Assembly (NCBI GenBank): GCA_002238825.1
Contig: MPNC01000022.1
Span: forward strand, 1-34,246
Source of the DNA: SAR202 cluster bacterium bin87
GTDB lineage: Bacteria; Chloroflexota; Dehalococcoidia; Lucifugimonadales; UBA3495
Length of the DNA stretch: 34,246 nt
Reading direction: 5' to 3'
The position numbers and the translations under genes were made by a program. Below the pieces are notes generated by a model that was not told the DNA's origin, made no database searches, and saw nothing but the letters and a program-made list of their open reading frames with translations. Shown in pieces: positions 1,768-28,437 of the stretch; the stretch's first letter is position 1, and each line of letters begins with the position of its first letter.

Positions 1768-3657
1768 TCACCGGGACCGCTTGGGCTCTCCGATGATGAG
1801 TTTGTGTAGCTTTTGGCGCATTGACCGTTTATGTTGCGGTTCGGGACCAACCTGTTGGCGGTCTCTGGCATCCGGCAGCGGTCCGGGTGAAGAATTGCTC
1901 GTCCGCCCGGGTTGGCGCTGCGCCGCGGGCGGGCTTGGCCGCTCCGCCGGTGGCTCTGGCTGCGCGCGGGTGGTCGCGGCAGATTGCCGGGCAGGCGGCT
2001 GCGACTGACCGGCCGTTCCCGATGATCGCGACGGGCGGGCGACAGGGACATTCCGCTTCCACACTGGGTCCCGGCCAGAGCCGCATTGGGTTGCCAATTC
2101 TGCGCAGAGTATAACGCTCATGGGCAGCGCCGAACCCGCCGCCAATACCGCCTCCTCGATTTCAGGATTGCCGGCCACGATATACACGGCGGGTGGATCC
2201 CCTTCCGTCCACGGTTTGCCAAGGTCGTAACTCGATTGGTGCACGAGTAGCCGCCTCCGGGCGCTTTCGACACTGTTCTCCGTGTCCATGTACTCCAAAG
2301 GCGCCCACTGTAGATCTCCCTGCTGAGGGACTCCGATGTACGCATCGGGAAAATGCTCATCCATATAAAGACGATTCCGTCCCAATTTGGACAGGTCCAA
2401 CCGTCGTCCCAAAGCAGTTGGTGTCCCCGCCCGTTGCAGCAGCAAGCCGATCCGGGCGACTCTGGAGGCGCGTCCCAGTTTCCTCGCCGACATGCTGCCG
2501 TCCACATTGCGGAGAAACGTGGTCCGGTTACTGGCCTGTTCCAAAGGGATGCGATCCAGGATTGCCAGCGCCCCGGTCCCAACTTCGCCCAGGTGGTAAA
2601 TGTCGTTGCTCTCTCCAATCCAGCCCCGTTCGATCAGCCCGTCGGCCACTTGCCGGATTCGGGTCCCGTTGGTCGACCCGAGGTTTTTGACAACGTCCTG
2701 ATGCTCCACGGCAAGCCAGCGATACACCACCCGGAACACCTTCATATCAAGCTCACCCAACAGATGGCGTCCTTCCCGAATGTCATCCAGCGATTCGCTC
2801 AGGTCGCCACCGACGTCTGCATCACGACTATTCACGTATGGAGGGACGTATCGTCCTATCTGCGTGCGCACCCTCATAGGACTCACCCGCTTCCCGTTGG
2901 TGTCGAATGACACAGTTGCCAGATGGCTGCCACTCTGATCCACCAGAAACGCCGAAAACGCATCCGGCACCACAGCCACCATGGTCGCCGGGTACGCGAT
3001 TTCAATAGGATCCTCCCAGGGATCAGTGGATTCAGAGATTTCCGCCTCGAACCTGAGCCCGGCGAATAGAGGCTTACCGTATGGTATCGGCCGGTGATGT
3101 GTCCCGTACTGCATCATCGGCACGATGATCTCGCCCTTTCGATCTTCGCTTCTGTATATCCCCAAGACCTGAATCGTTTCACCCCGGCACCACAGAAGGC
3201 ATTTGAGATTCATGTCGCGCAGATCTTCGGCATTCATCCTCTCACCAGCAGCCGTTCTGATGTCCACCGGCTTTTCCGGGTTGAAATTCTCGTCGTCGAT
3301 GTTGGCCCAGAACGTCGGCGCCACTGCGTAGAGCACCTCCAGAAACTCGATGTCGATAGTGTGGGTCCGTAGATCACGGTCGGAGTGTGGGTAGACTGGT
3401 GGGTCATCAAACTGCGCACGCACCGCCTCGATTCCAGACGGGAGGAGTACGTACCGCTGGACCCTGCCGAACGCGCGCCCGATCGGGGCCCCGAAAATGA
3501 GCGCCTCGTCCTGAAGGCGCCTCAGTTGTTTGCGAACGTATGCGGGCGAAAACGTGCCCACACTGGCGACATTGTTGGCGCTGGCCCACGGCATGCACCA
3601 GAGAACCGCCAGGATGAAAAGTCTCACATCGCCTTGGAAATCGTCGAAATCGATCAT
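1768..3657 (-). CDS. Large double winged-helix protein, partner of the replication-relaxation-like gene
   Basis: This 629-residue protein starts at the ATG at 3657, 9 bases after an AAGGGAG Shine-Dalgarno sequence. A longer frame reaches 3723 but lacks such a site. Residues about 10-80 form a winged-helix domain (CMPWASANNVASVGTFSPAY, then RVQRYVLLPSGIEAV). A second winged-helix-like segment lies near the middle (YRWLAVEHQDVVKNL ... DGLIERGWIGESNDIYHL). The last ~80 residues are Pro/Ser/Gln-rich and probably disordered. The start of the N-terminal domain resembles the protein at 20314-21225 (MPWAS against LPWAS), so the two look paralogous. It is the second gene of a pair with 3787-5517, separated by a spacer with a tandem repeat. 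Likely DNA-binding; exact role unknown. Confidence 0.7.
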   Translation of the reverse strand: MIDFDDFQGDVRLFILAVLWCMPWASANNVASVGTFSPAYVRKQLRRLQDEALIFGAPIGRAFGRVQRYVLLPSGIEAVRAQFDDPPVYPHSDRDLRTHTIDIEFLEVLYAVAPTFWANIDDENFNPEKPVDIRTAAGERMNAEDLRDMNLKCLLWCRGETIQVLGIYRSEDRKGEIIVPMMQYGTHHRPIPYGKPLFAGLRFEAEISESTDPWEDPIEIAYPATMVAVVPDAFSAFLVDQSGSHLATVSFDTNGKRVSPMRVRTQIGRYVPPYVNSRDADVGGDLSESLDDIREGRHLLGELDMKVFRVVYRWLAVEHQDVVKNLGSTNGTRIRQVADGLIERGWIGESNDIYHLGEVGTGALAILDRIPLEQASNRTTFLRNVDGSMSARKLGRASRVARIGLLLQRAGTPTALGRRLDLSKLGRNRLYMDEHFPDAYIGVPQQGDLQWAPLEYMDTENSVESARRRLLVHQSSYDLGKPWTEGDPPAVYIVAGNPEIEEAVLAAGSALPMSVILCAELATQCGSGRDPVWKRNVPVARPSRSSGTAGQSQPPARQSAATTRAQPEPPAERPSPPAAQRQPGRTSNSSPGPLPDARDRQQVGPEPQHKRSMRQKLHKLIIGEPKRSR

Positions 3658-3659
3658 AT

Positions 3660-3692
3660 CTGACTCCCTTCTGACTCCCTTCTGAATCCCTT
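3660..3692. repeat. 11-bp tandem repeat carrying the Shine-Dalgarno site
   Basis: On the minus strand, AAGGGATTCAG is followed by two copies of AAGGGAGTCAG, ending two bases before the start codon at 3657. Each copy carries an AAGGGA/G ribosome-binding core, so the leader holds up to three candidate ribosome-binding sites. Copy-number change would alter the leader without touching coding sequence. The spacer of the paralogous pair at 20211-20313 also contains tandem repeats. Confidence 0.85.
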
Positions 3693-3786
3693 TGAGCGCG
3701 CCGTCACCGGCGATTGCCGCCATCGTAGCGCCCTTGCCCCAGCCCCGTTTATCGCTAATGCAGGCTTCCGGATTGCCCAGCCAACG

Positions 3787-5517
3787 TCATGGCCGGCAGC
3801 GGATCCGCGTTGGTCCCGATGGAGTCCGCCAGACGCCGGGGCCGTCAATGGATCCCGACGTCGCCAGCTGCAACGTCGTCGCCGCTACCTGGTCGTGCTG
3901 ACCGATCTCGACCACCCTCGTTGCGGCGCGCTCGGTTTCGCAGACAAACAGCACGGGGACGGGTGTACCGGTGGCTGCCACCCGGCGGTAGGTTCGCAGC
4001 TTTTTGGCGATCTCCCCGGGCGAAACCGCCGATCTCTCGAATTCGACCCGATACCAACCCGAACCATAGGGACCGGCAGCGAGTTTGATCACGGCATCGG
4101 GCTGTATCTGGGTAAGGCCGGGGACATTGGTCGTTGCTCTCCACCCACCCACCAACTCGCCGCCAGCGCTGAAGAATTCTGACGCTAATGCTGCCAACCC
4201 GCGGTTGTGTGCGCGGTATTCGTCCCGTTGCTCCCGGTTCAACCACCGTCGGCACGTGTCTCGTACCACATCAACATGGATGCGGCTTACGTTGGCTACG
4301 AACTGCATGCCGGCCTCGTCTAGGTAAAAGCCGCCGCCGTCCTCGAACACCAAACGTGCACCGCATAGTGATTCGCGAACGCGCCTGAACACGTCGCCCG
4401 ACACCCTGAGGATCTTCTTGGCCTCGGCCCGATTTACCGACGGAAACGACGATATCAGCATCACCAAGCGGAACGCCGGCGCAGAATCGATGGCGGACAG
4501 GTCCCGCCTGGCGTTCAACCAACCGTGAATGGCAGTTCCCGCGTGGGGGTCGTTCCAACCGGCCTTTGCCGAAATGAAACGGTCGGTTACCATCGACCGG
4601 GACCAGCTTATTTGTATGGGCAAATTGTCCCCGTTGCCGGTCCAAAGAGTCGATGACACCACGTTGGGGCCCAGATGTTGCTGTGCCAGCTTGAACCCCC
4701 ATTCGTCCGCGGGCACGATGACGTGCAGCGATGGTTGGGGCTCGAAACCCTCGTCACTGTCATCATAGTAGTCGGGCCTCCGTTCCCCTGGAAGCCATTC
4801 ATAACGAGCCAGCCCGTCGAAGCGGCCATCGTGCTTGCCCCTAAGCACCACGCCCTTGGCGTGCGCTCCCACGTAGGTGAATCCGACCCACCAATGATCG
4901 GAGTACCGTGCAACGATATGGTAAAGGCGCCCCGAGCGCAGCCAACGTATCTCCGTGAGCCCCAGGCCCGGACCCGTGACCCATTCCGGCTGTTCAAAAG
5001 GCAGGATGAGGTGGTCCGACAGCAACAAGTTCGGCGCGATGCGGTAGACCTGCTCCGCCAGTGCTTGCCTGTAGAAAATCACGCGGATTCCCGCCACTGT
5101 AGCCGACCAGGGGGCGTGCTGATGGTCTGCCTGATCTCCAAACGGGCCGTGGGTATGCTCCCACGAAAACTGGCGTTCCAAATGTTTCACTTCAGCTTCA
5201 TGCTTTCCCGTCTGCCGTAACCGTGCGAGCCGCCGCCGATCGTCGAGTGACGGATGTGTGTGGTTGGTGTCGTATAGGAAATCTGCACCGGTGGGAGTAA
5301 TCCAGTAAACGTCCTGCTGGCGCCGGGTGTAGCTTCTGCGGGCGTGTTCCACGAATTGCGCATCTTCAAAACGCTTCAGCGTTCGTCTCGCCGCAGCTTC
5401 GTCCACTCTCCATCGAAGGGCGAAATCTGCGTTACTACCCAATGGCATCTCCCCCAGATGCCCGAGTCGTGAGAACAGGTCGTCCATAAGGCGCGCCGAC
5501 CACCTCGTCGTACTCAT
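3787..5517 (-). CDS. Replication-relaxation-like protein with PD-(D/E)XK-type C-terminus
   Basis: A 576-residue protein with an ATG at 5517 preceded by a strong AAGGAGG site. The N-terminus (about 10-85) is a winged helix (RVDEAAARRTLKRFEDAQFV, then VYWITPTGADFL), the architecture of plasmid replication-relaxation proteins. A second winged helix follows at about 350-410 (PSVNRAEAKKILRVSGDVF). The last 110 residues contain PDAVIKL (about 473) and YRVEFERSAVSPGEIAKKLR (about 489-508), then PVLFVCETERAA. A PD ... ExE ... KL..Y pattern like this marks the nuclease-like domain of that family, although a canonical ExK is not obvious (ExE-R-S instead). Upstream partner of 1768-3657. Likely nucleic-acid binding on a plasmid or integrative element; catalytic activity uncertain. 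Confidence 0.7.
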   Translation of the reverse strand: MSTTRWSARLMDDLFSRLGHLGEMPLGSNADFALRWRVDEAAARRTLKRFEDAQFVEHARRSYTRRQQDVYWITPTGADFLYDTNHTHPSLDDRRRLARLRQTGKHEAEVKHLERQFSWEHTHGPFGDQADHQHAPWSATVAGIRVIFYRQALAEQVYRIAPNLLLSDHLILPFEQPEWVTGPGLGLTEIRWLRSGRLYHIVARYSDHWWVGFTYVGAHAKGVVLRGKHDGRFDGLARYEWLPGERRPDYYDDSDEGFEPQPSLHVIVPADEWGFKLAQQHLGPNVVSSTLWTGNGDNLPIQISWSRSMVTDRFISAKAGWNDPHAGTAIHGWLNARRDLSAIDSAPAFRLVMLISSFPSVNRAEAKKILRVSGDVFRRVRESLCGARLVFEDGGGFYLDEAGMQFVANVSRIHVDVVRDTCRRWLNREQRDEYRAHNRGLAALASEFFSAGGELVGGWRATTNVPGLTQIQPDAVIKLAAGPYGSGWYRVEFERSAVSPGEIAKKLRTYRRVAATGTPVPVLFVCETERAATRVVEIGQHDQVAATTLQLATSGSIDGPGVWRTPSGPTRIRCRP

Positions 5518-6108: not shown

Positions 6109-6825
6109 ATGAGGATGTACCCGAGAGAGTTTCCGGCAAACCGCCGTGGGAGACCGAAAAGGCGTGCGGAACGACGAGTTTATGAAGCCCTGGCTGGGAA
6201 TGACCGCCAGGGCTTTTGCTATTACGAGTGGCGCAAGGGATATGAACACATTGAGCTCGACTTCGCCGTCTGGGTGGAGGGTCTCGGCCGCTTCGCGCTG
6301 CAGGTGAAGGGCGGCAGGTACGTGCTCATCGACGGCGAGTGGCGCCTGAAGACCCGGACCGGCGTCAAGTCGGTCCGGTCCTGCCCGCTGGACGAGGCCA
6401 AGCTGTCCGCCCTGGACCTGCACGACGACATCGAGGAGCGTGCGTGCACAACCTACAACCCGTACGTGATTCCGGTGTTGATATTTCCCGACATGGAGCC
6501 TGATCCGGCCATCGAGAGCCTGGCCAAGCGCACGGGAGTGTACGTGATCTGGGGGGTCCGCAACCTGTGGGCCGACCTGGAGGAGATCGTCCGGAGCCGC
6601 CGGGTGTCGGAGGCGCTGGGGATGGACCGCATCGCCCGCGAGGTGCATGCGGTGACCGACGGGCTGATCCGCCTGGAGAATTTCGAGCAGGGCTGCGCTG
6701 CCGATGCGACGGATCAGCCGGTTCCCGTCCCAGAGCGACGGCAATGCACCGGGGCGCTTCGGCTGACGCTGGTCGGCGTCGACGTCACGATGACCCGCGC
6801 CCGCGGCGTGCGGCCGGCGGGATAA
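6109..6825 (+). CDS. NERD-type nuclease-domain protein
   Basis: A 238-residue protein. The start is the ATG at 6109, preceded by AAAGGAG; a closer ATG at 6100 is followed at once by a stop. Residues 17-80 match the NERD (nuclease-related) pattern: a Glu-containing helix (RRAERRVYEAL), Asp51 in ELDFAVWVEG, and Gln65-Val-Lys67 in GRFALQVKGG. Usually the last motif is ExK. QxK is known in the related Mrr group, so activity remains possible. After about residue 110 comes a domain with YNPYVIPVLIFPDMEPDP, shared with the protein at 9333-10052. It is followed by a UvrD-type helicase, a common neighbour of NERD proteins, which suggests DNA processing or phage defence. The nuclease role is inferred from motifs. 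Confidence 0.75.
   Translation: MRMYPREFPANRRGRPKRRAERRVYEALAGNDRQGFCYYEWRKGYEHIELDFAVWVEGLGRFALQVKGGRYVLIDGEWRLKTRTGVKSVRSCPLDEAKLSALDLHDDIEERACTTYNPYVIPVLIFPDMEPDPAIESLAKRTGVYVIWGVRNLWADLEEIVRSRRVSEALGMDRIAREVHAVTDGLIRLENFEQGCAADATDQPVPVPERRQCTGALRLTLVGVDVTMTRARGVRPAG
6186..6217 (+). terminator. Terminator-like hairpin inside the NERD coding sequence
   Basis: AGCCCTGGC (6186-6194) and GCCAGGGCT (6206-6214) are perfect 9-bp arms around an 11-base loop, and the 3' arm runs into TTTT (6214-6217). The element has the shape of an intrinsic terminator but lies about 80 bases inside an open reading frame. It could attenuate transcription or simply be a coding coincidence; the T run is short. Confidence 0.35.
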
Positions 6826-7091
6826 CCGCCCGCATCGCCGGGCAGTCCACGCCCTGGTCAACACATGGGCCCAGCTCGCCGTAGCAGTCCGGCGCTGTGG
6901 CCACATCCGTGCAGCAACGACGGCGCCGGTCGGCCGATGGCCGCCGGCGCTGGTTCATGCGCATCACGGACTCATCCGGTCCGTCCCGACCGGCAGCGTG
7001 CACGTCGTCCACGCCATTGATGCCGCCGCCGTTGCATGTCGCTGACATCCTCCGACCTCAATCCCAAACCCAATTCTGGAGTGAAGCAATT

Positions 7092-8855
7092 ATGAAGACC
7101 CTCGCGGGCGTGGCGCCCGTCATATTGTCCCTATACCCGCAGCTGGACGCTGGACAGCTGGAGCTGATCGGCAGCTTGGACGGCCCCACGCTGGGCGTGG
7201 CCGGACCCGGCGCCGGCAAGACCCTGACGCTGGCGCTGCGCGCCGCCAACATCCTGTTGCTGCGCAGCGCCGGACCCAGTGAGCTGCTGCTGTGCACGTA
7301 CAACGCCGACGCGGCGGGTGAGCTGCGCCAGCGGTTTGACGCCGTGGCCGCCGCAGCGGACTACGGCGTAAGCGCCGGCCGCGCTCGGGTCTGCACCATC
7401 CACAGCCTGTGCGGACGGCTCCTGGCCGAACACCCCGAGCGGGTGGGTCTGCGGCGCGGTTTCCACCTGCTGGACAACGATCAGCAGTTGAACCTGTTGC
7501 TGCAGCGGTTTGACGACGTTTTCGGCCCCGACCTGCGGGAGCTGGAGGGACGGGGCTGGCGACGGCCGCCGGCGGTGGTGAAGAACGCGCTGAAATACTT
7601 TGAGCGTATTTGCGACGAGGCGATCAATCCCCGGGACCTGACCCGTTCCCGCAGTGCCTTCATCGCCGCGGTGGGATGCTGCTACCGGCGCTACGAGCGG
7701 CTGCTGCTGGACGAGAACGCCGCCGACTTCGCCCACCTGCAGGCTTGGGCCGACCTGATGCTGGATGACGATGACGTTGCCGGTGAAATCTCCGGTGGCG
7801 TACGGTACTTGATGTGCGATGAGTACCAGGACACCAGCCACGTGCAGGAACGCATCCTGAGGCGGCTGTCCGAAGCGCACGGCAACCTGTGCGTGGTCGG
7901 CGACGAGGACCAGAGTTTGTACCGTTTCCGCGGCGCCACGGTGGGCAACATCCTGGGGTTTGCCCGGCGCTTCCACGACTGCCGGATGGTGGAGCTCACC
8001 GTCAACTACCGTAGCCATCCCGACATCGTGAAAGCCTATGACCGGTGGATGGGGTCGGCGGACTGGTCCAACCCCGATCCTGCCGGCGCGCCCTTCCGCC
8101 ATGCCAAGACCATCGTCCCCCACGACCCGCGCGGGTACGACGATTATCCGGCGGTGATTGTCATCGACGGCCAGGGCCCCGACGACGAGGGCGAGCAATT
8201 GGGCGCGCTGCTGCGGCTGCTGAAAAGCCGCCGGGTGATCGCGGGTTATGACCGGGCGGCATTGCTATTACACAGCGTGCAGGACGAGGTGGCCGGACCC
8301 TATCTGGACGCCCTGGATGATGCGGGCATTCCCGCCCGCTGCGTGCCGGCCGGCGCCGGTCGTGGGGAACGGGGCCGGAGGCGCGCCCGTGAAGCGGTGA
8401 CCGTGACGACCATTCACCAGTCCAAGGGGAGGCAGTGGCCGGTGGTGATCGTGGGGTCGCTGGATTTCCACCAGCCCAACGTGGATCCGGTGGGACGGTC
8501 GCTGGCGCCGTACTTTCTGCGGTCGGACGCGGAGCCCGCCCGGCGCATCGCGGCCTTCGACCACATGCGCCAGCACTACGTTGCTTTCTCCCGGGCCGAG
8601 CGGCTGCTGGTGCTGACGGCCGGCGGTCCGGTGCACCAGCGGTTTGCCGACATCTGGGATGGGGCACGCCGTTGGAGAGAGTTGTGTCCCGGGGACATTG
8701 AGGCGCTGGCCCGCCAGCGATTCGAGCCCAGGGCGAAGGGTCCCATGCGGGAGGCCGCGCCGACGGTGGGGCGGGTGACGCTGCGCCTGACGGGCGTGGG
8801 TGTGCATTTGGGACAAGCGCCGCCCGGGGGGCCCCCCGCCGGTGGCAGGGCCTGA
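7092..8855 (+). CDS. UvrD/Rep-type superfamily 1A DNA helicase
   Basis: The frame is open from 6897, but the ATG at 7092 has a GGAG site and leaves a normal N-terminus, giving 587 residues. The full motif set is visible: Walker A GPGAGKT (38-44), motif Ia LCTYNADAAGELRQR, TIHSLCGRLL, Walker B DEYQDTS, motif III GDEDQSLYRFRGA, motif IV NYRSHPDIV, motif V TIHQSKGRQWPVVIV and motif VI HYVAFSRAERLLVLT. It should be an ATP-driven 3'-5' translocase, and is shorter than UvrD because subdomains 1B/2B are small. It sits between a NERD protein and a degenerate NERD-like protein, so a joint nuclease-helicase machine is plausible. The C-terminus is Gly/Pro-rich. Confidence 0.9.
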   Translation: MKTLAGVAPVILSLYPQLDAGQLELIGSLDGPTLGVAGPGAGKTLTLALRAANILLLRSAGPSELLLCTYNADAAGELRQRFDAVAAAADYGVSAGRARVCTIHSLCGRLLAEHPERVGLRRGFHLLDNDQQLNLLLQRFDDVFGPDLRELEGRGWRRPPAVVKNALKYFERICDEAINPRDLTRSRSAFIAAVGCCYRRYERLLLDENAADFAHLQAWADLMLDDDDVAGEISGGVRYLMCDEYQDTSHVQERILRRLSEAHGNLCVVGDEDQSLYRFRGATVGNILGFARRFHDCRMVELTVNYRSHPDIVKAYDRWMGSADWSNPDPAGAPFRHAKTIVPHDPRGYDDYPAVIVIDGQGPDDEGEQLGALLRLLKSRRVIAGYDRAALLLHSVQDEVAGPYLDALDDAGIPARCVPAGAGRGERGRRRAREAVTVTTIHQSKGRQWPVVIVGSLDFHQPNVDPVGRSLAPYFLRSDAEPARRIAAFDHMRQHYVAFSRAERLLVLTAGGPVHQRFADIWDGARRWRELCPGDIEALARQRFEPRAKGPMREAAPTVGRVTLRLTGVGVHLGQAPPGGPPAGGRA

Positions 8856-9111
8856 ACACAGGCGGTGAGCCGCGGGTTCTGAACCCCAGCACCTGGGCGC
8901 AGCGTCTCTCCGTGATGCTGCGGGCCTTGGCCGTCGTCCTCGGGATGGTGGCCATCGTTCCCCCTGGCGCTCCGGTGCCGGCTGATCTCGGGTCCGGGCC
9001 ACGGACGGTTGGGTGACGTGAAAACCGGTCGTTGACGACCACGAAGCCAACTGTCGGGAAAAGGTCGCGCAGGTCCGGCCCATACCACACCACAAGGAGG
9101 TGAACATCATC

Positions 9112-9168
9112 ATGCGCCAGGAAACCGCGGGCAACGCCACGGTCCGGGGGCCGCCCTCGGGTGGCTGA
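9112..9168 (+). CDS. Possible 18-residue leader peptide
   Basis: A near-perfect Shine-Dalgarno sequence, AAGGAGGTGA (9094-9103), stands 8 bases before the ATG of an 18-codon frame, MRQETAGNATVRGPPSGG, then TGA. It lies between the helicase and the third cassette gene and is followed by a terminator-like hairpin at 9239-9274. This may be a regulatory leader peptide. It could also be the surviving start of a deleted gene. No sequence family is recognised. Confidence 0.4.
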   Translation: MRQETAGNATVRGPPSGG

Positions 9169-9238
9169 GCGAGCGTAACCCGCCGGGGGCAGACATATCC
9201 GACCCAATTCACCATACCAGCCTGGCCGTTGCTGCTGA

Positions 9239-9274
9239 GGGCCGATCCGGGACCTTCCTGGATCGGCCCGTTTT
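9239..9274 (+). terminator. Intrinsic terminator or attenuator before the pseudo-NERD gene
   Basis: GGGCCGATCC (9239-9248) pairs perfectly with GGATCGGCCC (9260-9269) around an 11-base loop, followed by GTTTT. It lies 58 bases upstream of the ATG at 9333. It could end helicase transcription or, with the small leader frame at 9112, act as an attenuator. Confidence 0.6.
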
Positions 9275-9332
9275 CGTTGCTGCGGACCGGGCGCAACCTT
9301 CCAATCACAACCGAAACAAAAGGAACCCAAGC

Positions 9333-10052
9333 ATGAAAATCGTGAAAACCGACGACAACCGCCCCATGACCCTGAAGGAGATCGAGATCTGCCAGCAGTT
9401 TGAGCAGAGCGACCGGTCCGGCCAGGCGCTGTGGTGGCCCATCGTGGCCCCCGGCGACCCCGTCCCCGGTGACCCCGCCTCCGACTGCCTGGTCCTGCTG
9501 GAGGGCAACGGCCGCTACGCCATCACCTTCCTGCACGGCCAGTGGTCCGTGCGGGACGGCGAGTGGTACCGCCACGCCGAGGACGGCGCCGTCACGCCGA
9601 TGGGCGACGTCCGGGAAGAAGCCTGGGAGGCGGCCATGTCCATCAAGGACCGGCTGTCGCAGGATCTGGACTTCGGCTGCTACGTGATCCCGGTGATGGT
9701 GTTCACCGACATGACCCCGGACCCGGACATCCTGGAGGAGATGCGGGGCAGCAGGGTACAACTGCTGTGGAGCCTGGACGACCTGGTCTCCCGGCTGGCC
9801 GACCTGCCCGACGGGGATCAGGTGCAGAAGCAGCTGGGCAAGCGGTTCATCTCCCGGGAGGTGGGGACGCTGAGCCGGCGGCCCGCGGCCGTCAGACCGG
9901 CCCAGGCGCCGAAGGCGGCGACCCTGACGGTGCGCGGCGGAGCGGTGACGGTCCGGGACGGAGACGAGGTCCACATCGATATCCACCTCCACTTCACCAT
10001 CACTGCACCCGGCGATGGCGACGACCCGTCGCTGAACGTGCGGGTTCAGTAG
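9333..10052 (+). CDS. NERD-like protein with degenerate active site
   Basis: A 239-residue protein with AAAGGAA upstream of its ATG. It aligns with the NERD protein at 6109-6825 without gaps around the active site: Asp51 is kept (SDCLVLLEG against LDFAVWVEG), but the QVKGG segment is replaced by TFLHGQ at 65-70, so Gln65 becomes Thr and Lys67 becomes Leu. Shared downstream are DGEW and YVIPVMVFTDMTPDPDI. The unique C-terminus carries VRDGDEVHIDIHLHFTITAP. Loss of both key residues indicates a non-catalytic paralogue, perhaps a regulatory or structural partner of the NERD-helicase pair. It ends just before a strong terminator hairpin. Confidence 0.7.
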   Translation: MKIVKTDDNRPMTLKEIEICQQFEQSDRSGQALWWPIVAPGDPVPGDPASDCLVLLEGNGRYAITFLHGQWSVRDGEWYRHAEDGAVTPMGDVREEAWEAAMSIKDRLSQDLDFGCYVIPVMVFTDMTPDPDILEEMRGSRVQLLWSLDDLVSRLADLPDGDQVQKQLGKRFISREVGTLSRRPAAVRPAQAPKAATLTVRGGAVTVRDGDEVHIDIHLHFTITAPGDGDDPSLNVRVQ

Positions 10053-10063
10053 CGTCCCCGCAC

Positions 10064-10099
10064 GACTGGCCGGCGCTCACCGCGCCGGCCGGTCGTTTC
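10064..10099 (+). terminator. Strong hairpin terminator after the NERD-UvrD cassette
   Basis: GACTGGCCGGCGC (10064-10076) and GCGCCGGCCGGTC (10082-10094) form a 13-bp stem with one G-U pair and the loop TCACC, followed by GTTTC. It starts 12 bases after the stop codon of the pseudo-NERD gene and probably marks the 3' end of the cassette, although the T tract is short. Confidence 0.6.
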
Positions 10100-10171
10100 G
10101 CGCGTCGACAGCTGGTACGCGTGGAACCGGCGTCGGGTCAGTCCAACGCGCCCGAGCATTCGCTGCGCGCC

Positions 10172-10204
10172 GTCCTCATCACCGTTCACGACGGTGATGA
10201 GGAC
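10172..10204. repeat. Perfect 14-bp inverted repeat
   Basis: GTCCTCATCACCGT (10172-10185) and ACGGTGATGAGGAC (10191-10204) are perfect arms around TCACG. There is no T run on either side, so it is not an ordinary terminator. It lies between the cassette terminator and brnT and could be an operator, a recombination site or a structured RNA element. Confidence 0.75.
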
Positions 10205-10358
10205 GAGGTGCCCCCGCCGATCATGGTGCAGGGCCAGTAGCCGCAAAAGGATGCCCGGGCCACCGCTTTCCACTTTGCCTGGGCGCGTGTGGCGAATCAT
10301 GCGTTCCTAAGTGTTAGAATGTAACTACAGATATGCACATACAATAAGGCGGGTTTTG

Positions 10359-10649
10359 GTGCAGTGGATTTGGGACCCGGAAAAGAACGATGAGAACTGG
10401 CGCAAACACCGCATTTCATTCGACACGGCCAGGCTGGTGTTCGACGACCGGCTGCATATATCGATTGAGGACCCCTACGAGGATGAGCCCAGGACCCGCA
10501 CCTTCGGCATGATTGGTCAGGTCCTCGTTCTGATGGTTCACACGTGGCCGGAAATCGGTTTGCGCGGAGAAGAACTGCCTGGCCGCATTATCAGCGCTCG
10601 AAAGGCCACCCAGCGCGAGAGGGAGGAGTATGAAGAACGAAGACGCTAG
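10359..10649 (+). CDS. brnT: BrnT-family ribonuclease toxin
   Basis: The expected family start (short segment, then WDPEKNDENWRKHRISFDTARLVF) places the start at the GTG at 10359, after a weak AAGGCGG site, giving 96 residues. An open frame from 10311 adds 16 unmatched residues. Family hallmarks are the KH.I.F..A..VF.D block, EDPYEDEPRTRTFGMIG, and the C-terminal RIISARKATQREREEYEERR. BrnT is a type II toxin that inhibits translation by cutting RNA. Its stop overlaps the antitoxin gene start by 20 bases, typical of co-translated brnT-brnA. Confidence 0.92.
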   Translation: MQWIWDPEKNDENWRKHRISFDTARLVFDDRLHISIEDPYEDEPRTRTFGMIGQVLVLMVHTWPEIGLRGEELPGRIISARKATQREREEYEERRR

Positions 10650-11190
10650 TCTGACCGACGAGCAGCGGGCTGAGCTGGCAGCTTTGGCCGAGCTTCCGGA
10701 AGACGAGATTGACACCACTGATATTCCCGAGGTTTTGGACTGGTCCCACGCCCGCCGCGCCGACCTCTACCGGCCGGTCAAGCAACAGATCACCCTGCGG
10801 CTGGACGCTGACATCGTGGCCTGGTTCAAGGAACGTGCTCCGAGCGGTCGTGGCTATCAGACCGATATCAACCGTGCTCTGAGGGAACACATGGACCGGG
10901 TCTCTTGGTGGGAGGCGATTCCCGCTTCGTGGAAGGCCGTGGACGCCGTCGAGTGCGTCCATGAGCAGGGCGACGCGAAGTGGGTGTTCCGTGGTACGTC
11001 GGTACCGGTGTCCACCCTATCCTTGGAACTGAAAGGGGGCGCAACGCTGGAGCGCTATCTGGCGGAGCACCCTGGTGTCGACCGGCAGAAGGCCGAGGCG
11101 ATGCTGGATTACCCGGCAGACCTCATGGGGATGCTGTTCGCGTCAGGACGGCCGGAAACCTGGCCAGCGGCGGCATGGAATAACTCCTGA
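10630..11190 (+). CDS. brnA: BrnA antitoxin fused to a DUF433-like domain
   Basis: A 186-residue protein whose ATG overlaps the end of brnT; GGGAGGAG precedes it. Residues 32-90 are a typical BrnA (IPEVLDWSHARRADLYRPVK, QITLRLDADIVAWFK, GRGYQTDINRALREHM), a ribbon-helix-helix that neutralises BrnT and represses the operon. BrnA proteins usually stop soon after. Here residues 105-170 continue with VFRGTSVPVSTLSLELKGGA, LERYLAEHPGV and QKAEAMLDYPADL, the pattern of the DUF433 helix-turn-helix domain found in other antitoxins. The result is an antitoxin with two candidate DNA-binding modules. Confidence 0.88.
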   Translation: MKNEDASLTDEQRAELAALAELPEDEIDTTDIPEVLDWSHARRADLYRPVKQQITLRLDADIVAWFKERAPSGRGYQTDINRALREHMDRVSWWEAIPASWKAVDAVECVHEQGDAKWVFRGTSVPVSTLSLELKGGATLERYLAEHPGVDRQKAEAMLDYPADLMGMLFASGRPETWPAAAWNNS

Positions 11191-12097: not shown

Positions 12098-15000
12098 TTA
12101 CTCGTCCAGGATGGATACATCGAACTGCCCGTTGGCGAGCAGGATTTCCAGCGCGCGCTCGGCGTTTTCGTGCACTTCCGGTTCGGCGCTGGTCAGACCC
12201 GCGTTCAGGATGCGTTTCGCGGGTTCGGGAGATACGTACGCGTCGCTCTGGGATTTCTCCACCAGCTGGGCAAAGCATGCGACGGCTTTGCCGGTGTGCT
12301 CCGGGATCAATTGCGATAACGCTGCCCAGGGTTGCCGGAAGGAACCGCGGTCGATCTGGCATACGTCCAGGGCGCGTGAGTAGGCCTCCAGCCGCCATTC
12401 GGCGCTGAGGCAGTCGGCCCCCAGCCAGGCATCGAACCGCGCCAACTCGGTGGGGTCGCCCACTTCAAGGCGCCACTCGAAGAAAGCCTCATACCGGCTC
12501 TTTACGGCTTCGTCCAGTTCTCCTTCGTGGTGGCACAGGATCCGTCCCACGTTTTCGAACAGGCCCGCCCATTGCTGCCGTCGTCCAACGGTGGCCAGGT
12601 AGTAACTTTCCAGCGGACTGCCGTCTCCCAGCAGCGGAAACATTCCGCTGGCGTGATATACGAGCAGTCGCTGGCCAAGGGTGTCCAGCACCCGGGAAAG
12701 CGAGGGATCCTGTTCGGTGTGAGCCGGTATATTCTGTGCCGCGAAGGCGAAGTCGTCCTCGAAGATCCCAAAGAGTCGGCGGTGGGGGTGATGATAGTGG
12801 AGGAAAATGCCGAATGGGGCGACCCAGTTGTGCCAGACGCTCCGCGGGAAGAAGTCGGACTTACGGGCCAGGGCCCAGGATTCATCCATGGCTAGGGCAT
12901 CCAGATATCCGATGCCCAGAATAGCCCTTTCCGGAGTGGTCAGCGGATACTGAGCAGTTGGAGAGAATCGGCCCTCCAGGGTCGCCGTGATTGCCGCAAC
13001 ATCGGCCTGCGGATCATGATTCCGCAGCCACCGACCAAACTTCAACAGGTCGGCCAGCGCACGGCTTCTGGTATTGCCGATGGCTCTCCTGAACGCGTCT
13101 TCGTGTCCCGAGAACGCCCTCCGGTCCTCGTCCAAGGGCCAGTCGTGTTCGGTGCACAGCGTGCCGAGAAGAATGGACAACCTGTCTCGGGCGACCAGCG
13201 GCATGGCGAGTCCGTTTTCCAAACCCACCGAGATCACCTTGCCCAGCAGGTCGCCAACCGCCCGGCGGCAGTCGCCCCAATAGGGATTGTTCCTTGTCCG
13301 GTCGCTGGGTTCGAGGCTGGGCTGGCGCTCCCGATCTGGGTGTGAGAGCACCCATTCGCAGAATTCCAGCCATCGGTCGAGATCACTTAGATCCTGCGCT
13401 TCAACTCGAGAGTTCATTGCGCCGAGCATCTTGCGGACGTAGATGGGGCGTTCGATCCGGTGCCGGTTTCCGAGCCAGAAATGCAGGCGGTCGGGAGTTG
13501 GGATTACCGCCTGTTGGAACAGTTGCCCGAATGCGTCCGACAGCGCGTCAATGGTGACCTCCGCCAATTGGTCTTCCGCATCGTTGTGCTCCTCATCCCA
13601 GTTGTTGATGTAGGACAGCAGGTCTTCGTCTTCCAGGCCGGCCAGTTCTTCAACGGAAATGGGGCTGTGTTCGCTGATCATGCCTGCTCGCATGGGCCCA
13701 ACCGGCATGTAATCCTCATCTGAAACGGATATGCCTGCCTCTTTCTCCAGGTCCTGGAGGTAGTCCCGATACTTTCCGAAGAGTACGTTCCGGAACGGCT
13801 GCAACTGCAGCCGGTGGAAGTTGCGTCGACGTCGTTCGAACAACTCCTCGGTGTAGTGCTCGCCCATAGACCTGCGGGTTGCCTCGCGGTCCGGTCCGTC
13901 CAGGATGGCTTCAAAGATGGGAGTCAGTTCCTCCTCAGTGAGCAGGTCATGGCCCAAGGTCTCGCAGGCGGAGCGCAGCATCTGCTGGAACTCGTAGTGG
14001 TATTGACGGTGACCATGATCCTGGTGTTGGAGGATCTCCTGCCGTATCCAGGGTTTCGTCCGCTCATCGGGGTGCAGCGCGTAGAGGTGCTGGCGCAGCC
14101 GTCGGAAGATCCTCCACCGCCGGTTGCGCAGTTCCTCATCCAGTGCTGCGGCCGAGTCTGGATCTCTCTCCCACACCTGTTCACAGGCGTACGTCGTTGC
14201 GAACACGAGGGTCTCGCTTGGTTGCAGCACCGTATCCGAAGGACCGTCCAGGCGCTGATACCAAATTTGCGAATAGTCGTCATCTCCGCCCTGGTCAAGT
14301 TCATCCTGGTGAAGTGTCTGCCGGATCAATCGGTTCACGGCGGAGATGAGGAGGCGTGCGCTCTGATAGGGTTCTGCGGCGGCGAGTTGTCGAATGCCTT
14401 GTTCCATCAGCTGCATATAGTCCCATCGATCCAGGCGAGGGAAAGGTTGCAGTGCGGTCGTCCAGTCGTGCGGATTTTGCTTCCGCAAGGTCTCTTTTGC
14501 ATCCTGCTCAGGGTCCGGGGCGAAATACACGATCTTCTTGGTGAGCTCCAGCGCGGCCGCGGTTTGCCCTTCGTCGGTCCAGTGAGCCAGAAGTTCGACC
14601 AGCCGGTAGGACAGGATTGGCGTGACAGCGCGCGTACAGCGGATCACTTCAGGCAGCAGTTGCGCCGATTGTTCCCCGGGGAATTGCCGCGCGATGTCCA
14701 GTATTTCGTCGGAGATACTCGGGTTGTTGAACCTCGGCAACTGCTGCACAATCGCTATGACTTCGTCAGGGTCCAAGGCCGCCATCCTGGCCAGGTATCG
14801 CATTGGCCACCAGGAAGGTACATGGACCTGTCCATCATCCAGTTCCTGGATGCTGGGAGGATGTGCGAAATATCCTCGTTCTTTGAGAATCTCCACCCAG
14901 GACGGATCGGATGCACGGTTGAAGAAGAACGCGTAGTTTGCCCCCCGGCGGTCGATCAGCTCGAAGATGCGGTTCACGTCGGCGGTGGTTCTGCCGGCGT

Positions 15001-15658
15001 TGTCCAGGATTGACTGGATTTCCTGCTGGTCCTGGGCGGTGATGGGTGCCAGCAGGTCCAACACGGTTCTCTCCAGAGTCCCCAGACAAGCGTCAAAGGC
15101 CCCTTCATCGTCAGACTGGTGGTGTGCGAACGATTCCAGTTGTCGCCACAGGCGTACTATTGCGTCCCGTCTCCGGTCGCGCGTAGCGCTGTCCATCTGG
15201 CCAGCCAGAGGATCGACATTTGCCACTGCACCCTGGATTTGTTCACTACGGGTCGGCTGCTGGCTCAACCTGAAATACGCCGCGACCTCCCGCAGAGTCC
15301 TGGCCAGGCGGCGGTCTATCTCTTGGCCTTCCCATCCGTCAGGGTAGCGCTCCAGGTCCTTGGCGATGAGAGCGTTCAGCTCCCTGCGTTTGCCCTGGAA
15401 ATCGGTTCGGCTGCCGGCGGGCAGATTGCTTTCCCCTAGAGCCCTCGGCAATTTTTCCAAGAGCTCGCGCAGCGACTGTGCAGCTTGCGAGAACCGGTCA
15501 GGGTTGTAGGGGTTGTTGACCGCGTAGAGGGCTCCAAGGTACCACTGGCTCAACCGGTACCGGTCTGTATCGTGCCTCTGGAGTGCACCAACGACCGTCC
15601 GTTGTGACGCGGAAAGCTCAAGAGGCGTCACCGCTCTGAATTCCCGGGAATCTTCCAT
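12098..15658 (-). CDS. Very large helical protein of unknown function (1186 residues)
   Basis: One intact frame from the ATG at 15658; no strong Shine-Dalgarno site is seen. I find no Walker motifs, nuclease motif, signal peptide or membrane segment. Nearly the whole sequence is amphipathic helix rich in Leu, Arg, Glu and Trp, in a pattern suggesting HEAT/ARM-like repeats. The N-terminal 75 residues contain YRLSQWYLGALYAVNN, NPDRFSQAAQSLRELLEKLP, which resembles an N-terminal module I associate with large bacterial island proteins having AHSLREL-like motifs. It is transcribed with a DUF2513-like gene and has a decayed fragment about 100 bases upstream. Plausible roles are a scaffold or sensor in a defence system; this is inference. 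Confidence 0.75.
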   Translation of the reverse strand: MEDSREFRAVTPLELSASQRTVVGALQRHDTDRYRLSQWYLGALYAVNNPYNPDRFSQAAQSLRELLEKLPRALGESNLPAGSRTDFQGKRRELNALIAKDLERYPDGWEGQEIDRRLARTLREVAAYFRLSQQPTRSEQIQGAVANVDPLAGQMDSATRDRRRDAIVRLWRQLESFAHHQSDDEGAFDACLGTLERTVLDLLAPITAQDQQEIQSILDNAGRTTADVNRIFELIDRRGANYAFFFNRASDPSWVEILKERGYFAHPPSIQELDDGQVHVPSWWPMRYLARMAALDPDEVIAIVQQLPRFNNPSISDEILDIARQFPGEQSAQLLPEVIRCTRAVTPILSYRLVELLAHWTDEGQTAAALELTKKIVYFAPDPEQDAKETLRKQNPHDWTTALQPFPRLDRWDYMQLMEQGIRQLAAAEPYQSARLLISAVNRLIRQTLHQDELDQGGDDDYSQIWYQRLDGPSDTVLQPSETLVFATTYACEQVWERDPDSAAALDEELRNRRWRIFRRLRQHLYALHPDERTKPWIRQEILQHQDHGHRQYHYEFQQMLRSACETLGHDLLTEEELTPIFEAILDGPDREATRRSMGEHYTEELFERRRRNFHRLQLQPFRNVLFGKYRDYLQDLEKEAGISVSDEDYMPVGPMRAGMISEHSPISVEELAGLEDEDLLSYINNWDEEHNDAEDQLAEVTIDALSDAFGQLFQQAVIPTPDRLHFWLGNRHRIERPIYVRKMLGAMNSRVEAQDLSDLDRWLEFCEWVLSHPDRERQPSLEPSDRTRNNPYWGDCRRAVGDLLGKVISVGLENGLAMPLVARDRLSILLGTLCTEHDWPLDEDRRAFSGHEDAFRRAIGNTRSRALADLLKFGRWLRNHDPQADVAAITATLEGRFSPTAQYPLTTPERAILGIGYLDALAMDESWALARKSDFFPRSVWHNWVAPFGIFLHYHHPHRRLFGIFEDDFAFAAQNIPAHTEQDPSLSRVLDTLGQRLLVYHASGMFPLLGDGSPLESYYLATVGRRQQWAGLFENVGRILCHHEGELDEAVKSRYEAFFEWRLEVGDPTELARFDAWLGADCLSAEWRLEAYSRALDVCQIDRGSFRQPWAALSQLIPEHTGKAVACFAQLVEKSQSDAYVSPEPAKRILNAGLTSAEPEVHENAERALEILLANGQFDVSILDE

Positions 15659-27068: not shown

Positions 27069-27190
27069 TTCTCCACCTCTTAGCAATCTTTCCAGCACCT
27101 CCGCCAAAAGTCTGGCGATGATGCCTTCGCTATCGAGGTGGCTCAATTCCAACCCGTGATTTTTGGCTCAGTTTAAACCCGTGAATGACA
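26487..27190 (-). mobile_element. IS21-family element, left end only
   Basis: The element runs from its terminal TGT (read on the minus strand from 27190) through the istA 5' part to the fusion point near 26487. The outer end carries two imperfect 21-bp direct repeats (27139-27159 and 27164-27184), each TGGCTCA-N6/7-ACCCGTGA, 25 bases apart; such repeats are transposase binding sites in IS21 elements. No istB follows and no right end is visible, so it cannot move by itself. The end cuts off the helicase gene at 27191. Confidence 0.75.
27139..27184 (-). repeat. IS21 end-binding direct repeats
   Basis: Two 21-bp copies sharing TGGCTCA and ACCCGTGA lie at 27139-27159 and 27164-27184 with a 25-base period, just inside the element end at 27190. 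Repeats of this kind are transposase binding sites in IS21. Confidence 0.7.
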
Positions 27191-28437
27191 ACTGGAAGGC
27201 ATGGCGCGGCGCCACGATGATGAACCGCCCCGGGCCGGTCCTTCCGACACGTCCGGCACGCTGCTTGACCCGCCCCACCGAGTGGGGCAGACCCAGGTTG
27301 AAGCCCACCTGCAGGTCGGGGATGTCCATGCCCATCTCCATGGCGCTGGTGCTGGCCAGCCCACGAATGTCTCCGGCCCTGAGCGCCTCCTCGATGCGTT
27401 CCCGTCGCATCAGACCGGACCGGTAGGCCATGGCGTCCCGGGACTCCACGATGATGGCGTCCTCGGTGATGCTGCGGGCCGCCTCGATGCCGGCCGCGGC
27501 GCGCTCCGCCAGCTGCCGGTCGTCGATGAAGGCGATGTACGACCGCTCGGCGTCCTCGCTGATCACCTCCCGCACCGCCGCCTGCGCAGGTCCCGCCAGC
27601 CCTCGTCGTGAGGCTCGCGGCCGACGACGTGCTGCACGGTGAGCTCGGCGTGGGGACTGCCGTTGTACCGGTCGTCCACCACCTGGAACGGCAGTCCGGT
27701 GAGGGTTTCGAGGTGCTGGGCCGGATTGTGGATCGTGGCGCTGGCGGCGATGACCCGCAGCGGCTCGAACTGGGACATCAGCTCTTTGCGCTTCTGCTGC
27801 AGGCGGTGCAGCAGGTAGAGGCAGTGGGTGCCCAGCGCCCCGTCGTAAGTGTGGGCCTCGTCCAGGACGAGGAAAGCCAGGTTGGAGATGAACCGGCGCA
27901 CGTTGTACTGGGTGTTCTGGACTTCTCTCAGGTCGTGGCGCAGCGGCCGTTTGCCGTAGAGTGGTTCCGAGTAGGCCATCAGCCACTGCTGGATCACGTC
28001 GGGGGTCATCAGGGCCAGGCGGGTGCGCTGCAGGACCTGCCTACGCTCGGTGAGGTCGCGGAGTCGCCGTCGATGCGGTTGATGCTGGCTGGATCCAGGC
28101 CGGCGACCTCGGCCATGTTCTGCCAGCGGATCACCTGGTCCCGGGCCAAGGCCTTGATGGGATAGATGGCGATGGCCGTGGCGTTGGGATTGGTGGCCAG
28201 ATGGTCCAGGGTGGGGGCCTGGAACACCAGGGACTTGCCGCTGGCGGTGCCGGTGCTGATCACCAGGTTGTGGCCCTGGCCCACCAGTTCCAGCCCCATG
28301 GCCTGGTGCAGGTAGAGTTGGCCGTCGCCCGTTTGTGCCTTCACCGCCGGCCATGCCGGACTGGCGATCAGCCAGGCGGGCGCGTCGCCGTGGCGGGCCT
28401 CCTGTCCGGTGATGGTGATCTCGTCGTGGATGTCCAT
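27191..28437 (-). pseudogene. DEAD/DEAH-box helicase of the DUF1998/MrfA type, frameshifted and truncated
   Basis: From the ATG at 28437 the first frame gives LYLHQAMGLELVGQGHN, Walker A STGTASGKSLVF and YPIKALARDQV. After a one-base loss near 28060 the next frame gives ALMTPDVIQQWLM, VRRFISNLAFLVLDEAHTYD (DEAH), and ASATIHNPAQHLETLTGLPF. After another near 27590 the third frame gives EDAERSYIAFIDDRQLAE, YRSGLMRRERIEEALRAGDI, STSAMEMGMDIPDLQVGFNL and QRAGRVGRTGPG. The order and wording fit MrfA/YprA-like helicases, some of which serve DNA repair or DISARM-type defence. The C-terminus is cut by the IS21 end at 27190. Two clean single-base losses could also be sequence errors, but the truncation is real. 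Confidence 0.8.

Follow-up and report, generated by a model that had tools for sequence, protein, structure and literature searches.

What would a bacterium do with a DNA helicase gene set between two related nuclease-like genes, one carrying a complete active site and the other not? The question is raised by a row of three genes in a 34,246-nucleotide stretch of DNA from SAR202 cluster bacterium bin87 (GenBank assembly GCA_002238825.1, contig MPNC01000022.1), the whole of which we call the window. The first-pass annotation described the row as a NERD gene, a UvrD helicase gene, and an inactive NERD gene on one strand, and there are indeed three intact plus-strand open reading frames (ORFs) at 6109-10052 (Table 1). 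Gaps of 266 bases (genes 1 and 2) and 477 bases (genes 2 and 3) separate them, and the frame of gene 2 is already open from 6897, upstream of its ATG start at 7092. With a probability of roughly 0.55, we read the row as a nuclease-helicase cassette that is mobile, probably acts against phages or plasmids, and includes a pseudo-nuclease as regulator. It is uncatalogued in the libraries searched, recurrent, and narrow in range.

Genes 1 and 3 are homologous, with 30% identity over 133 amino acids (E 4e-17, blastp) and E 1.4e-30 in profile-profile comparison. In the gene-1 family, E40, D51, Q65, V66, K67, G68, and G69 are invariant in an alignment of 10 sequences, which upholds the QxK-type active site proposed earlier and gives gene 1 the E, D, (E/Q)xK residues of NERD / PD-(D/E)xK nucleases. 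A subgroup of the family (locus L025 and the second cassette at L027) carries ExK. Gene 1 probably encodes a metal-dependent NERD-like PD-(D/E)xK DNase. Gene 3 lacks the E, D, (E/Q)xK set. Among the four gene-3 homologues, the columns of E40, D51, Q65, and K67 hold W/R/N, D/S, T/S, and L, respectively, so that E40, Q65, and K67 are replaced in all four copies, in keeping with the loss of key residues claimed for the second NERD-like protein; D51 alone of the catalytic positions survives, in three of the four.

No model in Pfam, PADLOC, or NCBIfam convincingly names either gene. Neither matches the Pfam NERD model (PF08378) up to E 5 or a PADLOC model up to E 1, and a sequence search of solved structures with the gene-1 profile found none. 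Across 18 family members, Pfam NERD matches one (E 2e-4; G005:C69, above the cut-off), and the gene-1 profile retrieves fused NERD-helicases, several of which lie above the same cut-off. Because one gene-1 relative and these fused proteins pass it, the putative NERD kinship of genes 1 and 3 rests on intermediates and is a transitive one.

The two NERD-like proteins had been expected to share a fold, and the predicted models bear this out. They have an identical order of strands and helices, both contain the alpha-beta core of PD-(D/E)xK enzymes, and their matches among solved structures are largely common; the likeness was judged from that order and those common matches. The best VIA-align result against solved structures was Z 10.5 for gene 1 (134 residues; root mean square deviation, rmsd, 3.4) and Z 8.7 for gene 3 (138 residues, rmsd 3.9). 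Matches largely common to both were the CRISPR ancillary nucleases Can2/Cdn1/Card1, VC1899, an EndoMS/NucS-type repair endonuclease, and the Schlafen linker. The best matches of gene 3, with rows within one Z taken as tied, are Schlafen regions adjoining the helicase domain, a likeness between model and structure that is only suggestive. Both models also match Schlafen region 402-555, just before the Schlafen helicase part, which may be an animal parallel of a NERD-like fold plus a helicase. Foldseek gave no match at E<0.001 with either model, and human immunodeficiency virus integrase rows in its output, with rmsd 15-20, were discarded.

Gene 2 has the full superfamily 1A (SF1A) motif set reported in the first-pass annotation. 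It matches the Pfam UvrD-helicase model (PF00580) at E 4e-53 and carries motifs I-VI of the UvrD/Rep group, with Walker A AGPGAGKT, DEYQD, GDEDQ, NYRSH, TIHQSKG, and YVAFSRA conserved in the family. Its nearest solved relatives in the PDB are UvrD and PcrA.

The full trio recurs at two further loci, on a second contig of the same genome (L023; 82, 87, and 97% identity for genes 1, 2, and 3) and in a related species (L027; 59, 56, and 39%). Two-gene NERD-helicase cassettes, some of them decayed, occupy seven loci (L025, the second at L027, L029, L030, L031, L032, and L034), and nuclease and helicase are separate genes at every cassette locus examined. In 50 genomes of the family, all 11 cassette helicases found at E<1e-100 adjoin a NERD-like gene, a count that leaves out a twelfth, weaker match on contig C19. 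The trio proposed at the outset thus stands as a recurrent arrangement, but the basic unit is the NERD-helicase pair, with the inactive partner downstream, upstream, or absent. An inactive NERD-like partner lies 5' of gene 1 in L032, with remnants in L031 and L029, and directly 3' of gene 1 in L074, which has no helicase. In the tree, gene 3 forms one clade (100/100), L032/L036 another (100/99), and L074 stands apart. Because the inactive partners form separate clades in different gene orders, the pairing of active and inactive proteins appears to have arisen, or to have been kept, in more than one arrangement.

Decay is seen at several loci. L024 has a shortened helicase and keeps gene 1 without gene 3, L037 has lost gene 1 and retains an intact gene 3 beside a helicase fused to an IS110-type transposase, and the helicases of L032 and of the second L027 cassette contain in-frame stops. 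At L033 it is the helicase next to the NERD-like gene that is distant (22% identity), and this helicase has an in-frame stop. The fusion at L037:10744-11517 places the N-terminus of the transposase in frame with the C-terminal part of the cassette helicase. The range of the family is narrow. Gene-1 relatives occur in 10 of the 50 family genomes at E<1e-5, some of them distant fused forms; at E<1e-8, an even draw from the class yielded only the source genome (1 of 294), and one from the phylum yielded the source genome and two fused forms (3 of 400). When 84,980 species were scanned with short peptide patterns, which miss distant relatives, only metagenome-assembled genomes (MAGs) of Chloroflexota (Dehalococcoidia) came up, and no relatives were found in viral contigs or in phage and plasmid collections. 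As a separate observation, the C-terminal tails of nuclease (6742-6825) and helicase (8770-8855) are alike in the window and L023 (LRLT..GVDV). A paired, amyloid-like signalling motif was considered for them and dropped, the likeness being significant only in this closely related pair and not in other cassettes.

How gene 3 is expressed bears on what it might do. The strong hairpin said to close the cassette is real (15 pairs; -48.4 kcal/mol for the stretch; z -4.6), and an imperfect hairpin also follows gene 3 in L023. A second hairpin, between the helicase and gene 3, had been overlooked. It is present about 60 nucleotides before gene 3 at all four gene-3 loci (window, L023, L027, and L037), and the stretch folds with z -5.8 in L023, -3.5 in L027, and -2.5 in L037. 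Among 12 aligned stem pairs, 4 show pair-keeping changes on both sides, in a comparison of four sequences of which two are close to each other. Rfam had no match in the window. Because a T-tailed hairpin with compensatory changes precedes all four copies, gene 3 is probably a separately controlled unit or one with an attenuated leader, and it is therefore unlikely to be a subunit made in constant ratio to the other two from one simple operon.

A unit under its own hairpin would also suit an immunity-type inhibitor, with the NERD-helicase pair as a self-damaging (abortive or addictive) module and gene 3, expressed from a message of its own, binding the nuclease and keeping it silent until infection. 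Gene 3 is homologous to the enzyme that it would block, and between species it diverges fastest of the three (39% identity versus 57 to 62% for genes 1 and 2). However, NERD and helicase occur without gene 3 at L025, L029, L030, L031, and L034, and L024 retains gene 1 without it. Because many cassettes that keep NERD and helicase, or gene 1, have no gene 3, the lineages concerned are unlikely to need an obligatory antidote, and we hold the inhibitor explanation as a whole to be improbable.

Selection was gauged from the two copies in the source genome, the window and L023, where the ratio of nonsynonymous to synonymous substitution rates (dN/dS) is 0.38, 0.30, and 0.26 for genes 1, 2, and 3. 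The synonymous rate (dS) is 0.065 for gene 3 versus 0.23 to 0.32 for genes 1 and 2, and gene 3 (window 9333-10052 against L023:6927-7646) is 97% identical, with few changes relative to its neighbors, genes 1 and 2, which differ by 10 to 15%. Because its changes are so few, either a recent exchange of gene 3 or a mixture of strains in the bin (4.8% contamination) is indicated. These values also bear on the possibility that gene 3 survives by chance, as a duplicate of the nuclease gene that has no role and is decaying. Its catalytic residues are lost, several cassettes are decayed, and there may be an additional gene-3 remnant downstream (a weak tblastn match of 39% over 44 amino acids, E 0.003, with the L037 gene-3 protein as query). 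Yet gene 3 is a full-length ORF of near-equal length at four loci, its dN/dS is 0.26, its upstream hairpin is conserved, and a confident core fold is predicted, all of which make a mere leftover very unlikely.

The enrichment near defence genes that the first-pass annotation had asked about is moderately supported, by a test that is small and post hoc and draws on dependent loci. Proteins within 10 kb of 14 cassette loci were compared with those of 20 arbitrary stretches of the same genomes, defence matches being counted at E <1e-40. Matches were found for 10 of 92 cassette-neighbor proteins versus at most 3 of 96 control proteins (one-sided p 0.034), and defence genes lay near 7 of the 14 cassette loci versus at most 3 of the 20 control stretches (p 0.035). 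The ten matches are SoFic (two), PDC-S26 (two), HmaC, a type II methyltransferase, QatA, a DpdF-like helicase, ZacA, and ZacB; the three control matches are one UvrD helicase and candidate (PDC) models.

The neighbors of the cassette in the window are a Replic_Relax-type pair, BrnT/BrnA, an integrase of phage type, and a large protein that weakly matches a pPIWI-associated nuclease. Both here (1768-5517) and at L031:6606-10162, the cassette has beside it, in divergent orientation, a Replic_Relax protein and another that is unnamed (32% and 24% identity). Because this divergent pair flanks the cassette at both loci, carriage on mobile elements is suggested. The same Replic_Relax neighbors, together with the UvrD/PcrA kinship of gene 2 and a nuclease fold close to EndoMS/NucS and Hjc, would fit a DNA repair or recombination module traveling on mobile elements, with AddAB/RecBCD- or NucS-like end processing, rather than defence. 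We think this doubtful, given a distribution that is patchy (10 of 50 family genomes) and rare beyond the family, the frequent decay of the cassettes, and the defence genes nearby.

The cassette probably belongs beside the known nuclease-helicase defence systems as a relative not yet catalogued, and as far as its anatomy shows, it would work like Hachiman, Gabija, and Nhi. Nhi and Nhi-like proteins likewise combine a nuclease with a helicase acting on DNA, and a NERD domain has been reported for Nhi-like proteins (PMC10952713). However, Nhi is described as a single-gene nuclease-helicase (PMC12904381), one polypeptide, whereas the cassette has separate nuclease and helicase genes and a dead nuclease paralogue. 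The PADLOC model search listed no Nhi family match for the cassette proteins, and membership was rejected on account of the separate chains. Hachiman (HamAB) is also a two-gene nuclease effector with a helicase sensor, and HamB is described as holding HamA in check until DNA damage is encountered (PMC12278908). The cassette differs in its UvrD-type SF1A helicase, in the added gene 3, and in having no HamA-type match in gene 1; Pfam and PADLOC gave none in genes 1 or 3, and membership was rejected. Gabija (GajAB) shares a UvrD-type helicase adjoining a nuclease gene, but the cassette is without an OLD/TOPRIM GajA, and it is chiefly the general helicase portion of gene 2 that GajB models match. 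It too was rejected, as Pfam and PADLOC gave no GajA match in genes 1 or 3. The fused NERD-helicases of ~565 to 610 amino acids retrieved by the gene-1 profile (e.g., L038, L039, L076, and L077) differ in being one chain, with a far more distant helicase part and no inactive partner. In MUS81-EME1 and R.BspD6I-type heterodimers, the nuclease fold acts as non-identical subunits. For genes 1 and 3, both rank low among the structures matched by fold, and they show no sequence kinship to either gene, so the likeness is one of arrangement only.

For a nuclease-helicase cassette with a regulatory pseudo-nuclease, the following course of action can be envisaged. Gene 2, as a UvrD-type 3'-5' translocase, would locate ends, gaps, or forks in foreign or replicating DNA, unwind them, and thereby license the gene 1 DNase. 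Gene 3, a presumably catalytically dead paralogue of gene 1 with the fold retained, would most likely take the place of a second nuclease subunit, pairing with gene 1 or the helicase and regulating cutting, and the hairpin before it would let its amount be set apart from those of genes 1 and 2. Regulation of an active enzyme by an inactive twin is well known among kinases and in MUS81-EME1-type nucleases. A more specific version remains tentative: a heteromer of active and inactive NERD proteins licensed by a UvrD helicase, with repeated origin or recruitment of the dead subunit and with a conserved RNA hairpin setting how much of it is made.

Several points weigh against our reading. Gene 3 is not essential, since most two-gene cassettes are without it, and the fact that it is controlled separately speaks against an enzyme of three fixed subunits. 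No confident structure was predicted for the C-terminal tail of either NERD-like protein (predicted local distance difference test, pLDDT, <50). The threshold of the small enrichment test was chosen after the first defence matches appeared, and its loci are not independent, L023 and L024 having the same divergent SoFic neighbor. The window itself is near only the BrnT/BrnA pair, mobile-element genes, and the one weak pPIWI-associated-nuclease match.

Table 1. Features of the cassette and its immediate surroundings (window positions)
Feature	Position	Strand	Basis
Gene 1, predicted active-type NERD-like PD-(D/E)xK nuclease, 238 amino acids	6109..6825	+	Translation, family alignment, predicted fold
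Gene 1, putative catalytic codons	E40 6226-6228; D51 6259-6261; QVK65-67 6301-6309	+	
Gene 2, UvrD/PcrA-type SF1A helicase, 587 amino acids	7092..8855	+	Pfam PF00580, motifs, PDB relatives
Gene 2, motif positions	Walker A 7200-7223; DEYQD 7818-7832	+	
Terminator- or attenuator-like hairpin ~60 nucleotides 5' of gene 3, then GTTTTCGTT	9239..9269	+	
Gene 3, NERD-like protein without catalytic residues (pseudo-nuclease), 239 amino acids	9333..10052	+	
15-bp terminator-like hairpin 3' of gene 3	10062..10096	+	
Possible remnant of a second gene-3 C-terminus (LITVHDGDEDEVPPPIMVQGQ)	10121..10240	+	Weak tblastn match
Divergent Replic_Relax-family protein (mobile-element type), outside the cassette	3787..5517	-	PF13814 E 2e-11

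Other features of the window lie further downstream. The BrnT toxin / BrnA antitoxin pair directly follows the cassette (10311-11190), and its BrnA-type protein has an additional DUF433 domain. The 1,186-amino-acid protein at 12098-15658 has weak matches to pP_pnuc_1 (E 7e-4) and Dsr1 (E 6e-5) and is possibly another unnamed defence gene. At 27168-28437, successive overlapping ORFs resemble pieces of a single DEAD-box helicase, probably a broken gene; the piece at 27168-27575 is related to a large DpdF-like protein at L033:2-3763.

A literature search on inactive-nuclease defence paralogues found no paper, and none of the papers searched described a nuclease-helicase defence system that has a dead nuclease paralogue dedicated to it. 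A dedicated pseudo-nuclease regulator within a bacterial immune system, which the cassette would provide if our reading is true, is a possibility we put forward with reserve. With the cassette, the nuclease-helicase group gains an arrangement in which NERD and UvrD are split, from a host lineage (Dehalococcoidia MAGs) whose defence genes are little studied. If the reading is true, the three proteins would make a compact system for studying how the host chromosome is protected from a DNase by a helicase and a pseudo-nuclease.

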